A model generated the notes under the pieces. That model saw nothing but the letters and a program-made list of their open reading frames with translations, was not told the origin of the DNA and ran no database searches. This document shows, one piece after another, positions 14,186 through 29,897 of a stretch of DNA of 64,000 nucleotides (its first letter is position 1; the number at the start of each line of letters is the position of its first letter). This DNA comes from a virus. Position numbers and translations under genes: made by a program. The DNA lies in the IMG/VR virus record IMGVR_UViG_3300028581_000011, positions 62,001 to 126,000 of that record; one strand, given 5' to 3'.

Positions 14186-15442
14186 CTATATGGTTACTAG
14201 GCCTGGTGTACGTCCTGAGAACTTCAGAAGATTGGCACGCACATACGGGATGTTGTTGAGCTCGTGCCATGGAGACGGGAAGTAGTTGTACTTACGCACC
14301 TCTTGGAACTTCACTGGAGTGCCTATGAAGCGTGCCTGCTCGGCATGAGTCCAATACAGAAACGAATTGGCATTCCAGAAGCTGCAATGTGTCGGATCTT
14401 GAAACGCACCACGACCATCCGTGCTCGGTGTATCGCTTAACAACCAGCCGTTGGGCGCTAGACAGCGATAGATCTCTCGCATGGTGACCAGTGGATCGCG
14501 CAGGTGCTCAAGAGCGTCACTGGCACGGAATACACCAACAGACCCATCAGGGAATGGCCACGGTGCGCAATTAAGGTCACGCTGTATGACACCCGGCGCT
14601 GGAAGTAGATCGATGCCCGTGAATTGCGCAGCCGGCAAGGGACCACTGCACAGGTCAATAGCTTCCAACGAATTGTCCCGACACCAGCGCATAACCAATT
14701 CTGGCAGGTAGTGATCGCACATACCTACCGTGCCCTTCTGTATCCAATCATTCAGCTCCAGCCCTGCTGAGCTATTCTCGTCATGGTGATGCTGTATGTA
14801 CAGACACTTGTCGATGTGGCGTACGTTACCAGACACGTATGTGCGGCATAGAAGGTCTTGATCATCTAGCGCCGGCAGCAGCGGATCGTGTCCCATTATC
14901 GTGTTGTAAAACGAGCTACGCCAAGCTCTGACATGGTTGGGCGCATACCATATGCGCGAGAAAGACGCAGGCGATGGTGGAAACGCAACAGCCTCCGCAA
15001 GCGCACGGCCTTCCCACTCAAACTGACGATACTGCCAGCCATGCTCGCTAGGGTACAACACAGGGCTGCCATCTTGATTGACGTCACACCAGTTCGAATA
15101 GACAAAATCGATGCCAGGTTCAAACGCCGCGTACAGCTCTGCCAGTGCATTTGGTGTCAGCTCATCATCGTGGTCGACTTCAACCAGGAATTCGCCAGAA
15201 GCTAGCTTACAGCAGAACTTCTTTAGCGAGCCTATACCTGTGTTTCCTGCCGCGTCAAAATCAATGCACTTTATGTGTTGACAACCGCTGGTCGCCAACA
15301 AGTTTCGAACATCGATTGCCTTGGCATCTTTGTTAGCAACGACAACCCACTCAAAGTCCTTGAATGTCTGTCGCGACAAGCTCTGCGCTAATCGCCGAAT
15401 ATTGGCAGGATTATGCGTAGGCGTAAAGATACTGAATCGCAT
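14186..15442 (-). CDS. Glycosyltransferase (GT2) fused to SAM-dependent methyltransferase
   Basis: The 418-aa chain starts as a GT-A family 2 enzyme: FSIFTPTHN near residue 3, then FLVEVDHDDELTPNALAELY near residues 84-103 with the acidic metal-binding DHDD. From about residue 255 it becomes a class I methyltransferase of the type 11 kind: IDLCSGP in the SAM-binding position, then FRASDALEHLRDPLVTMREIYRCLAPNGWLL. The fusion suggests a sugar is added and then methylated, capping the glycan. It sits between fibre genes and a radical SAM gene, so I infer virion protein decoration. Confidence 0.8.
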   Translation of the reverse strand: MRFSIFTPTHNPANIRRLAQSLSRQTFKDFEWVVVANKDAKAIDVRNLLATSGCQHIKCIDFDAAGNTGIGSLKKFCCKLASGEFLVEVDHDDELTPNALAELYAAFEPGIDFVYSNWCDVNQDGSPVLYPSEHGWQYRQFEWEGRALAEAVAFPPSPASFSRIWYAPNHVRAWRSSFYNTIMGHDPLLPALDDQDLLCRTYVSGNVRHIDKCLYIQHHHDENSSAGLELNDWIQKGTVGMCDHYLPELVMRWCRDNSLEAIDLCSGPLPAAQFTGIDLLPAPGVIQRDLNCAPWPFPDGSVGVFRASDALEHLRDPLVTMREIYRCLAPNGWLLSDTPSTDGRGAFQDPTHCSFWNANSFLYWTHAEQARFIGTPVKFQEVRKYNYFPSPWHELNNIPYVRANLLKFSGRTPGLVTI

Positions 15443-15469: not shown

Positions 15470-15904
15470 TCAGTCAGGATTGACTGATTCTTCCACACCT
15501 AGCGCAGCCTCAAGACCTGCGATAGTTGCTTCTGTAGCTGCGATAGCTGCAACGTCAGGCGTTGACGCCGCCTGCAGCTTAGCAAGAACAGCAGTGTAGT
15601 AGCTGTGATAGTAGATTTTGGCAGCAAGCTCGGTCACTGTCTGAAGCATAGCCGCGACAGCAGGAAACTTGATAGCCTCGGCGAAGATGTCATGAATAAG
15701 AACCTTCTTGGTCAGCTCGGAGTCCCAGGCAATTTCCTTGCTGGCAAAGTTATACGGCTGGAACATCAGGGACATCCGCTGTGTCAGTGGGTCTCGTTTC
15801 GACACACTTACAAGCATCGCCGTCAGATACAGCTCGTTGAACGTCTTGCTTTCGACCGCAGGCAGTACAGTCGCTTCGGCGCTCGGTATCGGCGTTAGGT
15901 CCAT
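15470..15904 (-). CDS. Hypothetical helical protein, 144 aa
   Basis: I choose ATG 15904 because GGAG lies six bases upstream. ATG 15916 is an alternative in the same frame. The protein is Ala-rich and helical, without cysteine. It contains a YYHSYYTAVLAKLQAA helix and an Ala/Thr-rich C-terminus. It overlaps the end of the radical SAM gene by 155 bases in another frame, which is unusual. It could be a partner or scaffold of that enzyme or an unrelated virion protein. Confidence 0.6.
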   Translation of the reverse strand: MDLTPIPSAEATVLPAVESKTFNELYLTAMLVSVSKRDPLTQRMSLMFQPYNFASKEIAWDSELTKKVLIHDIFAEAIKFPAVAAMLQTVTELAAKIYYHSYYTAVLAKLQAASTPDVAAIAATEATIAGLEAALGVEESVNPD

Positions 15905-17063
15905 TAGTGGCTCCATTCTTGTTTCTAGGCTTACGTTTAGGCACGTCACGATTTGGTCTTGAATCTAGGCTTGCTTGCCACCAGTTAGGATTCAACTCAC
16001 GAAGCTGTAGATCAATCCAATGTACAATCTTAGCCGACTCTTGCTTGAATCGACAGTATACAGGGTTGGGCTTTGACATGTCGCCCGTAGTCTTATAGTT
16101 GATATGATAGCAGCCGGAATCGCAACTACGTACAGCAACGCAGCCGGCACACATGGCTGGGCGTTCTAGGCTTACGACTTTGTGTAATCCACACTTTGCA
16201 ATGTTACCATAGCCTCTATCTTTGTAATCGAGTATCTCTCTTAGCGTTCCACGGCAGAACGGCCCATCAGCCGGTTCGCTGCTAAACCGATGACAAAGAT
16301 AGACATTGCCTTCGCAAGATACACAAGCCATGTTACGGCCAGCGCCGCAACCCATGCGGTGTATAAAATCATGCTGTTTTGACTTGAATGTAGCGCAAGC
16401 CCTATCAATCCAGAACAGGCGAAAGCCCTTACCGGTCTTTTTGAAGTCCTCTACAAACTCAATGCCCAGCTGCCACAGCTGTTGACAGAATATCTCTATG
16501 TTTTCAGCTGACCAGTCCGGATAGTAGTCGGGCTGTGGCGACATGCCTTTGACAAAGCCCAAGGACTGAAAGTAGTGCATAGACTCGATAATGTACTTGG
16601 CAGCCTGCGGTGCGATCGTACTGCGACGAGTCTTGCCATAGTCTTTCCACAACAGGGTGGCTTTGTTGTAGCGTTCTAGGGCTTTGACTCCTCGCCCATC
16701 TGCCACGGCAGCAGGACAGCCGTCCACAGACCGCTGCACACTCAGCTTATTACGTTTGCAGTATTCGAAGATCTCTACGTCGTCAGATAGGCCGTTACTC
16801 ATAACAGAAAAATGAGTTCCAGCCCCTCTTGATTTCAATGTGTCGACAAGATACTTAAGACTGTCAAACGCCAGCAAAGGTTCCCCGCCGTACAGCTGCA
16901 ACTTACCTAGACGACCGCGCATGGTTATCTCGATCACGTCGTCCAACACAGCCTTCGACATGTCTACATTGGTTTTATGCTGTCCGAGATAGCAATAAGG
17001 GCAGTCAAGATTGCATCGCCTGGTGAGCTCGATGTCTAGTGAACGAATGCCGGAAAAACCCAT
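15750..17063 (-). CDS. Radical SAM enzyme with SPASM-type C-terminal cluster domain
   Basis: This 437-aa protein has the radical SAM motif CNLDCPYC (C17, C21, C24) for a 4Fe-4S cluster, then GGEP near residue 59, which contacts SAM. From about residue 239 come cysteines at 239, 247, 250, 257, 270, 291, 305, 308, 314, 318 and 337, spaced as in SPASM domains of peptide- and protein-modifying enzymes (anSME, sactisynthases, PqqE). A basic, non-conserved-looking tail after 365 runs over the next gene. It lies 48 bases downstream of a Cys-rich collagen-like gene, with a palindrome between them. Substrate unknown. I infer that it modifies a virion protein. Confidence 0.85.
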   Translation of the reverse strand: MGFSGIRSLDIELTRRCNLDCPYCYLGQHKTNVDMSKAVLDDVIEITMRGRLGKLQLYGGEPLLAFDSLKYLVDTLKSRGAGTHFSVMSNGLSDDVEIFEYCKRNKLSVQRSVDGCPAAVADGRGVKALERYNKATLLWKDYGKTRRSTIAPQAAKYIIESMHYFQSLGFVKGMSPQPDYYPDWSAENIEIFCQQLWQLGIEFVEDFKKTGKGFRLFWIDRACATFKSKQHDFIHRMGCGAGRNMACVSCEGNVYLCHRFSSEPADGPFCRGTLREILDYKDRGYGNIAKCGLHKVVSLERPAMCAGCVAVRSCDSGCYHINYKTTGDMSKPNPVYCRFKQESAKIVHWIDLQLRELNPNWWQASLDSRPNRDVPKRKPRNKNGATNGPNADTERRSDCTACGRKQDVQRAVSDGDACKCVETRPTDTADVPDVPAV

Positions 17064-24759: not shown

Positions 24760-25000
24760 GATTCAGCCACCATTTGAACAGCAGATTGATGACTATGGAC
24801 AACGCCCACAACACAAGTATTGGACTACCGTAGGTTTCCCTGTAGTCCGCTATAGCCTGCGTCCGTATACGCTTGTCGTCGAAGCCGTTTGTGTCCCACT
24901 TGGCAACTATAAGCTTGAGCCATCGTCTGGCAGGCTTGCGTCCAGCTCGAAGTCGAATAGATTGGCTGAATAGGGCCTCTTCGAATTCTTCAGGACGCAT
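24698..25000 (-). CDS. Membrane-anchored protein, 100 aa
   Basis: ATG 25000 is chosen because GGAGG lies five bases upstream. The N-terminal 55 residues are charged and basic (RLRAGRKPARRWLKL). One membrane segment follows (SPILVLWALSIVINLLFKWW, about 60-79), then a polar tail. It lies between the lipoprotein and the holin-like gene, and its end overlaps the latter. It may be part of a lysis or inner-membrane complex. No family assigned. Confidence 0.6.
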   Translation of the reverse strand: MRPEEFEEALFSQSIRLRAGRKPARRWLKLIVAKWDTNGFDDKRIRTQAIADYRETYGSPILVLWALSIVINLLFKWWLNRDRADTEQIVRDYRASADAS

Positions 25001-25002
25001 GG

Positions 25003-25563
25003 CTACCTCCGACGGAAAAATAGACCTCTCGGCGCATAGCCAGTGCTCTGTTGCGGAGTGCCGCAACTGCCTGACGGGCACGAGCCAGAGGTCTGACCAC
25101 CGATCGTGCAGGCTCCGTTTGCACAGTCGCTCTGCTGAAAAGGTGTCCAGGCCTTAGGCGTTTTGTTGGTCTGTACGGTGATAGACAGGCCGTTGTTCTG
25201 CACGTTGTCGAGCAGCGTGTTGATCTTCTGCGCAGTTTGCTTGGCTGTATCCGTCAGATCCGAAATGCCTAGCCAGCTGCTGGGAGATCCAGCAGAACCG
25301 GAGCTACAATCTGGGCACGGCGTCTGGTGTCCGTCACCGTGTGTAATGTAGCCCGTGTTGTTGCAGCTAGGGCATACACCTGGAACAGGCGGCGTAGGAA
25401 TAACTGGTTCGAATGAGGTCAGGCTGACCACGGTCACAGACGCTGCAGCAACATCTAGTGATATTGCGTCATGACCTCGCCAGTCGTAACGAACACCAGG
25501 CACAGTGGTCTGGCAGCCCGACAGACACAGACCAACACAGGCGGCTAACAACAATGATCGCAT
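25003..25563 (-). CDS. Predicted lipoprotein with DnaJ-type Cys motif, 186 aa
   Basis: A short signal sequence ends in a lipobox (CLSGC, cysteine at about residue 17), so the protein is probably lipidated and held in a membrane facing outward. Near residues 64-85 it has CPSCNNTGYITHGDGHQTPCPDC, a CxxCxxTG...CxxC arrangement as in DnaJ zinc fingers. The C-terminal part has further Cys/Gly repeats (CANGACTIGG, CPSGSCG). Position beside a holin candidate suggests a spanin-like role, but the zinc motif is unusual for spanins. Confidence 0.7.
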   Translation of the reverse strand: MRSLLLAACVGLCLSGCQTTVPGVRYDWRGHDAISLDVAAASVTVVSLTSFEPVIPTPPVPGVCPSCNNTGYITHGDGHQTPCPDCSSGSAGSPSSWLGISDLTDTAKQTAQKINTLLDNVQNNGLSITVQTNKTPKAWTPFQQSDCANGACTIGGQTSGSCPSGSCGTPQQSTGYAPRGLFFRRR

Positions 25564-25567
25564 AGTG

Positions 25568-26518
25568 TTACCCTAACACGTCTGAGGGGGTGCCGTAGTT
25601 CGGCAGCTTCTTAGCGGGTATGCCAACGACGTCGCAGTAGAAGAACATTGAGCGTGACCTTAGGAAATATTGAGCCCACATTTCTTCGCTCAACAGGAAC
25701 GAACCCACAGGCCACGGCCCGTACAGTTCGTCAGGCCACACGCGCGGCTTGTTATTCCATTTGCCCCAGGAATTTGCGACCAGGAACACGCAGCAGGGGT
25801 AAACCTGCTTGGTGTCGTCCATGCCAATGGTGGCCATGTCATGATTCCACGACTTACCACGCACAGCCAAGCCGCGAGCATCTGAGCTGGCCTGCACGCC
25901 GAATTGCTGGCCTGAGTGGCAGGCGTAGCCAGCTGCGAACAGGGCCTTAGCTTCGGCTATATCGCCAGGTGCCACGTAGCGTCCGACATGATGCTTCTTG
26001 CACTCGGCTATCATTTCAGCCGGCATGCCTCGGAGCCAGTTGTCACATATCCATTCGTTGAGCTTAGACAAGTCAGCGAACGGGTACTTCTCACGAAACA
26101 GGAAACCGGTGTCCACTTCGAAACGTGTAGCTACAGCCGGATCCATACCCTCGCCGCGCGAGCCACGCGCACCGTACGTAGGCTCGGTGGCTCCACGTTT
26201 GTAGTATTCCTCGGCTTCACCCTTGATGTCGATTTCTACCGAGCGAGTAGTGTCTCGGCAGTTACGAGATCCGTGGCTGACACAGCTACCTCTGACCTGG
26301 GCCTCAAGTCCAAATGCTCCTGGGTCATACTTTTCACGAGACTTCCACAGTAACGCCAAGGCCTTATCACCTATGCCACGAAGATGCGGGCAGGCCGCAC
26401 CAAATGTCGTGGCCTTGCCATCGGCAAACAGCCGCTCCATCGTGGCCTTGTTGTACTGCCAACCAAGCAAGCCGCATTCGTAAGCAGACACAATGTCTTG
26501 CGGAGTCCGGAAAAGCAT
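25568..26518 (-). CDS. Papain-like (C1-type) cysteine peptidase
   Basis: The 316-aa protein shows the papain catalytic set in order. Q74 and C79 lie in EAQVRGSCVSHGSRNC (oxyanion Gln, nucleophile Cys). H226 lies in KSWNHDMATIGMDD. N249 lies in VANSWGKWNN, the hallmark NSWG motif. There is no visible signal peptide or pro-region. C1 peptidases are uncommon in phages. Possible jobs are cleavage of host envelope or cytoplasmic proteins, maturation of virion proteins, or lysis, given the membrane proteins next to it. Ribosome site GAGGTG. Confidence 0.8.
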   Translation of the reverse strand: MLFRTPQDIVSAYECGLLGWQYNKATMERLFADGKATTFGAACPHLRGIGDKALALLWKSREKYDPGAFGLEAQVRGSCVSHGSRNCRDTTRSVEIDIKGEAEEYYKRGATEPTYGARGSRGEGMDPAVATRFEVDTGFLFREKYPFADLSKLNEWICDNWLRGMPAEMIAECKKHHVGRYVAPGDIAEAKALFAAGYACHSGQQFGVQASSDARGLAVRGKSWNHDMATIGMDDTKQVYPCCVFLVANSWGKWNNKPRVWPDELYGPWPVGSFLLSEEMWAQYFLRSRSMFFYCDVVGIPAKKLPNYGTPSDVLG

Positions 26519-26526
26519 ATATCACC

Positions 26527-26994
26527 TCACTTGGCTTGCAGACAGGCCCAAGCAACTGCGTTCAAGGCACTAACCAGAGATGCCCGCAACGTAGTGCCAT
26601 CGGTACGGGGCTTATTGAGGTCAGCCACCTCTAGACCAATTTGCTGCTGCAACACTTGATCAATAGCAGCAGCAAGCCCTGGTACTTTCGGTGTCAGGAT
26701 TCCTGCAAAGCGTAGCGTTACAAAACGTGTATTGGCCTCTTTGAAGTCCCTAGTCGTTTTTATAACGCCGGCATCACGCTGCACAGTATCAGCCAAGGCA
26801 GCGTAGGCATAGCCAAGCTCGGCAGCCTGAGCATGACCTTTGAGCAACGTCGTTACAGGCTTAACCGCGTCTTGCAGACCAGCTGCCGGCGCAGTAATTA
26901 CCGATGGCGTAACCGTCTCCTGCGGCCCAATCACTCGCGGAGCCACAACCAGAACGAGCGCCAAAGCAAGTAAGATCCCTCGTAGCTTAGTCAC
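26527..26994 (-). CDS. Exported or membrane-anchored protein, 155 aa
   Basis: The start is GTG 26994, set by AAGGAGG about six bases upstream. ATG codons further upstream lie inside the neighbouring gene. A basic N-terminus (TKLR) and hydrophobic stretch (GILLALALVLVVAPRVIG) form a signal peptide or anchor. The mature part is Ala-rich and helical (LKGHAQAAELGYAYAALADTV). Function unknown. It is probably periplasmic and part of the envelope-directed group around the cysteine peptidase. Confidence 0.65.
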   Translation of the reverse strand: MTKLRGILLALALVLVVAPRVIGPQETVTPSVITAPAAGLQDAVKPVTTLLKGHAQAAELGYAYAALADTVQRDAGVIKTTRDFKEANTRFVTLRFAGILTPKVPGLAAAIDQVLQQQIGLEVADLNKPRTDGTTLRASLVSALNAVAWACLQAK

Positions 26995-28235: not shown

Positions 28236-29897
28236 TCAAACTTCAATCATATTAGCCGTACGGACAGAAATTGCAATATCGTCTTCGCTGATGAACAGGG
28301 CAATGGTCCGACCACTGGACATATTGTCGTCGTCGGCAGGCAATTCCAGCACATCCGTAGTGGCCGTGTACTGCAGTTCTCCGTTAGGCTTACGAATCAC
28401 TGCCAATAGCTCTAGCGCCCGAACATGGGCTGGAGAGGACAGATAGGCGTGTATGACATCGGTCAGAGCCGATGTAGACAGCACATTGGTGAAACCAAGG
28501 TTGTGGATGTATGCCGCCAGATCGCTACGGATCGCTGCAACGTCTGGCGTTGTTTGCCCTGGCGACAGTTCTATGGTGAACGACATGTGCAGGAAGCACG
28601 GTATCGGGGCTTTGATCAATATGTCGCCAGCGCCATTCAAAAAGCTGCGACGTGAAGCCCAATCCTGAATGGCAGCAATATCCGGCATACGCTCCACAGT
28701 TACATCGTAGTCCTGCGTCGACACGTATGGCGTTAGTGACGCTGTCGGTGTGGTCGAATCAACGAACTGGATAACGGCGGTCTGGAATCGACTGTACGTT
28801 GACTCTAGGGCTGTAGCAATGTCGGGAAGTAACCCACCGGATTCAAGTGCGCTTATATCAGTGCCGCGCACGTCGCTGTAGACTGCGAACGTACCGCTAT
28901 CTGTGCTGCCAGAAGCCACAATACGTGAGGCATAGTAGAAGCCTGGGGCCTCTTCACGATCAATCGAAAACTGCCACAGGCCGCCGCTTCCGTCGCTAGC
29001 ACGTCCAACATATGTGGCTGTCTTGGCTAGCATAGTGCTGAGTGGTCGGATACGTGTACGTACGTACCAGTCTGTGCAGCCACCAACAGAGCACGGCATA
29101 AGGCTATGCTGATCTCGCAGCATTCCAGCATCGCCCATTCCAAGTATCGAGTCCGACAGTATCTGCGGAAAGGCAGAAGCATCCCTGATCGCGGCACTCA
29201 TATGGGCGCGACCACCACAGGTCTTAACTGTCAGACCATCGGACAGTCGAGCGATAAGATCCGTATTGGTCTCCTCGTCGCGGCCATCAGAAAAGTCTGA
29301 AGTGACGTAGGCTTTGACAAAGTACGACGGCTGCGGAATGACACTCAACTCAGTGCCACGCAACAGCATGTAGCTACTGCCGACTGAGGCAGCCACAAGC
29401 TCAATAGTAAAGCTGTAGTTGCCGTCACTCAACTCCTGCAACACGCGGTCCTGATCAGACACAACATTATCAACAGATGTGCGCGCAGAGAAACTAGCGG
29501 CAGTGGTAAACTGCAGACCATTGGCCTCAAAGAGCGTACCCGCCGCTATTGTTACTGGCTGCAATGCATTGAGCTGAATGGTGACTGTGCCGCCAGCGAA
29601 GCTACCTGCACTTCTTACAACGCCGTGGTTGTAGAGTACGGCATCCACCAGATCGTCTGAGACGAGTGAAGGATTCTCCACCAGGCGTTGCAGGCTCAGA
29701 GCATCAGACATGTTTGTCAGCTCGGTCTGGTGCTTAGCTGCAAACATAGCCCCAGGAACCAGTAGAAGGCTGCGCAATACGCCTGACCGTAGATCCAGAC
29801 TAGGATTGTATTCAGCCAGTAGCGCTGTCAGCAATTCAAGCTGCTGCTCAACTAGCGTAGGATCAAGATCAGAAAAGCTGGCAACATCAGTACCCAT
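28236..29897 (-). CDS. Baseplate J-like protein
   Basis: This 553-aa protein fits the baseplate wedge family of phage Mu gp47 and P2 gpJ. It has an N-terminal helical part (LLTALLAEYNPSLDLRSGV, LRSLLLVPGAMFAAKHQTE) and a characteristic beta segment, GGTVTIQLNA...TIAAGTLFEANGLQFTT, near residues 105-135. A wedge built of such subunits surrounds the hub and triggers sheath contraction. It is next to a gp25-like gene, the normal neighbour of J proteins. Start ATG follows GAGGT. Confidence 0.8.
   Translation of the reverse strand: MGTDVASFSDLDPTLVEQQLELLTALLAEYNPSLDLRSGVLRSLLLVPGAMFAAKHQTELTNMSDALSLQRLVENPSLVSDDLVDAVLYNHGVVRSAGSFAGGTVTIQLNALQPVTIAAGTLFEANGLQFTTAASFSARTSVDNVVSDQDRVLQELSDGNYSFTIELVAASVGSSYMLLRGTELSVIPQPSYFVKAYVTSDFSDGRDEETNTDLIARLSDGLTVKTCGGRAHMSAAIRDASAFPQILSDSILGMGDAGMLRDQHSLMPCSVGGCTDWYVRTRIRPLSTMLAKTATYVGRASDGSGGLWQFSIDREEAPGFYYASRIVASGSTDSGTFAVYSDVRGTDISALESGGLLPDIATALESTYSRFQTAVIQFVDSTTPTASLTPYVSTQDYDVTVERMPDIAAIQDWASRRSFLNGAGDILIKAPIPCFLHMSFTIELSPGQTTPDVAAIRSDLAAYIHNLGFTNVLSTSALTDVIHAYLSSPAHVRALELLAVIRKPNGELQYTATTDVLELPADDDNMSSGRTIALFISEDDIAISVRTANMIEV

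Follow-up and report, generated by a model that had tools for sequence, protein, structure and literature searches.

The window, a stretch of 64,000 nucleotides corresponding to bases 62001–126000 of a 185,248-base virus record (G000), encodes a papain-like cysteine peptidase that carries no export signal and sits in a conserved cassette with genes for membrane and exported proteins. The family of this peptidase is found in uncultured phages and is linked to Planctomycetota. We put at about an even chance that the enzyme is a lysis-linked protease, which a holin would release and which would attack the protein-rich envelope of planctomycetes.

The peptidase and its relatives

The peptidase ORF runs on the minus strand from an ATG at 26518 to 25568; the plus strand of the same region contains many stops. 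Packing on this strand is tight, with the gene for partner A (Table 1) ending at 26527 and the ATG of the next gene downstream located at 25563. The earlier note, which left the strand unstated, had listed Q74, C79, H226 and N249 in this order together with an NSWG hallmark. These residues were confirmed where it had put them, within the sequences VRGSC79VSHGS, WNH226DMATIG and N249SWG.

Used alone as a query, the window protein had no match in Pfam and PHROGs, in INPHARED and IMG/VR, or among PDB sequences, and a search of INPHARED with a relative (L022) was likewise without a match. The family surfaced only via a DNA pattern on the His motif (HDM...G) and NSWG, which selected 67 IMG/VR stretches, 50 of them encoding relatives. 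A second scan, based on a 36-row alignment, gave at least 561 tblastn-confirmed IMG/VR matches. Because relatives were recovered by both routes, the ORF is not a chance one, and the earlier view of such an enzyme as rare in phages was not supported, the family being abundant in uncultured phages. Listed relatives were 37–70% identical to the window protein, which scored 437 bits against a profile built without it. IMG/VR records may be fragments; one (G009) looks complete, since the same subtilase was found near both of its ends, 58.9 kb apart. The family is unnamed and is missing from Pfam, from PHROGs and from the searched phage records.

Conservation of the catalytic residues was assessed in 80 loci. 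C79 was present in all 80, Q74 in 79, H226 in 79 (with one gap) and N249 in 77, the figures for H226 and NSWG being biased by the use of NSWG, HSGQ and HDM in the search patterns, in which Q74 and C79 had no part. All 13 distant relatives on planctomycete chromosomes retained Q, C and H, and 11 of them retained N. This conservation suggests an active enzyme, with an activity that would be proteolytic.

The AlphaFold2 model obtained from a 36-row alignment of relatives had a mean pLDDT of 91.5. Foldseek and VIA-align returned papain-fold enzymes throughout 50 rows, the first being xylellain (3ois; Z 20.6, rmsd 2.8 Å over 230 residues, 14% identity). In the model, C79 opens a long central helix (79–99), H226 lies in a strand (225–234) and N249 follows another (244–248). 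The structure prediction proposed earlier as a check thus yielded a papain fold in which C79, H226 and N249 are predicted to be placed, by secondary structure, as in papain. Sequence comparison stayed short of the Pfam cut-off for PF00112 (Peptidase_C1), for which the best of 36 family members had an E-value of 0.0026; the chromosomal relatives, used as a bridge to this Pfam family, also had no match. The designation as a C1 peptidase was therefore kept for the papain-like fold and residue order and dropped for Pfam-defined membership, and we refer to a papain-like family of its own.

Compared with papain (family C1, clan CA; nearest solved fold xylellain), the phage peptidase has the fold, the Q-C-H-N order and NSWG in common. 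It differs in having no significant sequence match and no signal peptide, in carrying GDCVSHG instead of the GSCW motif, and in a Q-to-C spacing of five residues, versus six in papain numbering. A papain fold also occurs in other phage proteins, namely papain-like peptidases of uncultured Caudovirales (for example A0A6J5TCZ4, A0A6J5MXS7, A0A8S5PQA2). Their identity was 12–17%, some of the annotated proteins are named peptidoglycan-binding or N-acetylmuramidase, and none in the phage collection joined the window family by sequence. Pfam and PHROG searches detected no peptidoglycan hydrolase domain in the peptidase, the fold of which is papain-like. Simple hydropathy windows found a TM or signal segment in none of the 80 inspected peptidases, in agreement with the absence of a signal peptide reported earlier.

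Composition and conservation of the cassette

In the window, the cassette spans 27749 down to 24424 (Table 1). A baseplate J gene (Pfam E 1.9e-11) is found at 28236–29897.

Table 1. The peptidase gene and its neighbours in the window, from high to low coordinates.
Gene	Product	Position	Strand	Basis
E	Soluble, helical-looking protein, about 125 aa	27372..27749	-	Similarity to genes of relatives
F	N-terminal TM protein, 121 aa	27026..27391	-	TM call, similarity
A	Partner A, N-terminal TM and soluble domain, 155 aa	26527..26994	-	Family alignment; GTG start after Shine-Dalgarno-like AAGGAGG
Peptidase	Papain-like cysteine peptidase, 316 aa; Q74, C79, H226, N249	25568..26518	-	ORF, alignment, model, fold matches
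B	Partner B, lipoprotein-like (LSGC lipobox), 186 aa	25003..25563	-	Sequence; profile near peptidase in 33/60 loci
C	Protein of about 100 aa with C-terminal TM segment	24698..25000	-	ATG at 25000 after GGAGG
D	Protein with hydrophobic stretches, 111 aa	24424..24759	-	Resembles a holin in size and place only; uncertain start codon

F was 45% identical over 66 residues (E 4e-15) to the gene before A in a planctomycete MAG contig (L071), and E resembled genes that lie close to the peptidase in two relatives, L073 (E 2e-6) and L080 (E 8e-5). Gene C showed weak similarity to genes at the same position in relatives (E 0.01–0.15). No similarity was found for D, and all holin candidates in the window were without similarity support; a 57-aa neighbour of the peptidase in L137 gave a weak holin profile match (E 0.027).

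We estimated the share of genes with a TM or signal segment at each position around the peptidase. It was 46, 59, 39, 62, 55 and 51% at positions -2, -1, +1, +2, +3 and +4, against a background of 8% beyond six genes from the peptidase; the earlier observation of membrane and exported neighbours was correct. These calls were made with simple hydropathy windows on ORFs called around relatives, and some ORF starts are wrong, chiefly in G+C-rich loci, because ORFs were chosen by length.

Partners were counted in the 60 loci whose two flanks each contained five or more ORFs, "near" meaning within seven genes; relatives are grouped by similarity, so these loci are not independent. A was near the peptidase in 51 loci, B in 33 and both in 32. 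Eight loci had neither, and no locus had A or B farther than seven genes away. In six of the 60 loci, A and B formed a single protein, which suggests that the two act together; fusions were seen in L102, L103, L118, L119, L123, L124, L127 and L133. Members of the A family have one N-terminal TM segment and a soluble domain (FY..LADV ... GKYPGL ... AVAW). Members of the B family have a signal- or lipoprotein-like start and a Cys cluster around HGDGH, in the window protein CPSC...HGDGHQTPCPDC with a C-terminal RGLFFRRR. A basic R..F.R tail was present on 26 of 49 B proteins, and nine of the 49 passed a simple lipobox test. Neither A nor B gave a convincing match to a Pfam family or to a PHROG whose function is known.

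Thioredoxin-like CGPC or CPPC motifs were noticed by eye in L108 and L145, on B proteins or neighbours of the same BLAST cluster, and in L119, L123 and L127 on separate proteins of that cluster. These motifs may serve to reduce disulfides in a wall rich in Cys. A further family (f17) had a gene nearby in 15 of the 60 loci. Its member at L116:9191-9775, a membrane protein that matches the PAS domain weakly (E 0.004), sits just upstream of a holin-sized gene and the peptidase.

The settings of the cassette vary: it is flanked by baseplate-region genes in the window, and lies close to nucleotide metabolism genes in L116 and, in prophages, close to terminase-like genes. Several other genes were noticed in these records. 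Outside the window (L151–L160), G000 encodes multi-subunit RNA polymerase domains (Rpb2 E 9e-44, Rpb1 E 1e-26), as well as an adenylosuccinate synthetase (E 2e-53). Among the apparent tail genes of the window are an ORF starting with a radical SAM-type CNLDCPYC motif (15750–17063) and a glycosyltransferase-like ORF (14186–15442), and Pfam matches to radical SAM and GT2 occur in the G000 record overall. One phage record, G007 or G022 (loci L189–L194), has matches to PrkA kinase and DUF444.

The planctomycete link

A search of the genome collection gave seven matches. Six were planctomycete MAGs, five of them 61–66% identical. At 1e-10, matches were found in 13 of 392 Planctomycetota genomes versus one of 386 genomes of the cyanobacterial phylum; after removal of two seed genomes, the counts were 12 of 391 versus 0 of 385 (about 3e-4). 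A cyanobacterial host, raised by one contig (L075), was rejected, as this contig is 3.6 kb long and the other 385 genomes of the phylum had no match. Judged by eye and by similarity, several chromosomal relatives adjoin terminase-, portal- and tape-measure-like genes together with TM genes, and A was present in six of the 13 chromosomal loci. The host clade of the family appears to be Planctomycetota, and G000 is probably a phage of planctomycetes, its own host being assigned through its relatives.

Proteins with DUF1501 were detected in the phage records G017, G021, G022, G024, G027, G031, G034 and G037, with up to three per record; none was detected in G000. A literature phrase search on phages of planctomycetes found no paper.

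A candidate role in lysis

Phages usually break the host envelope with wall-cutting enzymes of another kind. The arrangement in the window is similar to holin-endolysin-spanin cassettes in that a soluble, unexported enzyme is flanked by small TM, anchored and lipoprotein-like exported proteins. It differs in that the enzyme, with its protease fold, is not a known peptidoglycan hydrolase. Possible parallels to spanins (Rz/Rz1 or single-protein) are the predicted inner-membrane anchor of A, a window B that is likely a lipoprotein, and natural A-B fusions; the Cys cluster, the often basic tail and the scarcity of lipoboxes set B apart.

A second protease accompanies the peptidase in many relatives. 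A subtilase-family gene was near it in 20 of the 60 loci, and of 31 relative records 16 contained PF00082, which was absent from G000. At L090:7152-9392, a subtilase (E 9e-45) that adjoins the papain-like peptidase is split by an intein that contains a homing endonuclease. For G018 and G010, the full set of Pfam families matched by the scanned ORFs (E up to 1e-4) included no peptidoglycan hydrolase, and none was among the families, at most 25 per list, shown for G000, G007 and G022. Amidase_2 was absent from the 31 relative records, and lysozyme and M15_3 were absent from these records and from G000. These single-family tests carry little weight, since nine control records were likewise lysozyme-negative.

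Under the proposed mechanism, the peptidase would be made without a signal peptide and accumulate in the cytoplasm until a small hydrophobic, holin-like neighbour breaches the inner membrane at the time of lysis. Once released, it would cut envelope proteins, and the inner-membrane A and the exported, Cys-cluster B could jointly act on the outer layers in a spanin-like manner. In many relatives, the subtilisin-like protease may assist.

Several lines of evidence point to such a role, among them the papain fold with its conserved catalytic residues, the weak holin match in L137 and the link of the family to planctomycetes. A soluble enzyme with no predicted export signal lies among small TM, anchored and exported Cys-rich proteins; the cassette is kept in very different genomic settings; about half of the relative records have a subtilase, and the lists for G018 and G010 have no peptidoglycan hydrolase; and planctomycete cell walls contain Cys-rich YTV proteins, with peptidoglycan genes missing in most Planctomycetales species (PMC8567305) and many of them dispensable in P. 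limnophila (PMC10632474). Against it we count the weak holin assignment, the eight loci with neither A nor B, the reliance of the hydrolase absence in part on lists of 25 families, the lysozyme-negative controls and the fact that other planctomycetes have peptidoglycan in lysozyme-sensitive sacculi (PMC4432640). Given these sacculi, the protease may act alongside a wall hydrolase instead of replacing one. Proteolytic activity, holin-dependent release, the substrate and lysis itself are the parts of this account that we infer.

The same partners would suit any envelope task, including remodelling without lysis, in which the protease and its membrane partners would trim surface or inner proteins of the host during takeover or to block superinfection. 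A missing export signal suits a cytoplasmic target equally well, and the f17 genes, with the weak PAS match in L116, could mean sensing. We nevertheless consider remodelling unlikely, as lysis genes usually combine an unexported soluble enzyme with small TM proteins next to it, and no early-gene context was seen. The position of the window gene, between the baseplate J gene and other apparent tail-region genes, would fit a tail-associated protease that digests a protein envelope at entry; this is distinctly unlikely, given that the cassettes of relatives lie away from tail genes and that the partners are TM and exported proteins. Head maturation by a protease is common in phages and the peptidase gene lies within the structural region of the window, yet a head or virion maturation protease is highly improbable here, the family being steadily associated with membrane-protein genes and not with head genes, and the L180 prophage having a separate ClpP-like gene (by eye) between portal-like and capsid-like genes. 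Among the sites of action offered in the earlier note, the envelope or lysis is favoured, and a role on virion proteins is less likely in view of the membrane and exported partners.

Whether the wall of planctomycetes is made of protein or of peptidoglycan has been disputed since the 1980s. A bolder form of the lysis proposal is that lysis of planctomycetes by their phages is proteolytic, the holin-released papain-like enzyme, often with a subtilase, replacing the endolysin where the wall is largely protein. We advance it tentatively, as a possibility; no lysis system with a protease in place of the endolysin was found in the searchable literature. If the peptidase is the lytic enzyme, it would tell what holds planctomycete envelopes together, which is testable with one purified enzyme. 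The cassette could also be a marker by which phages of planctomycetes are recognised.
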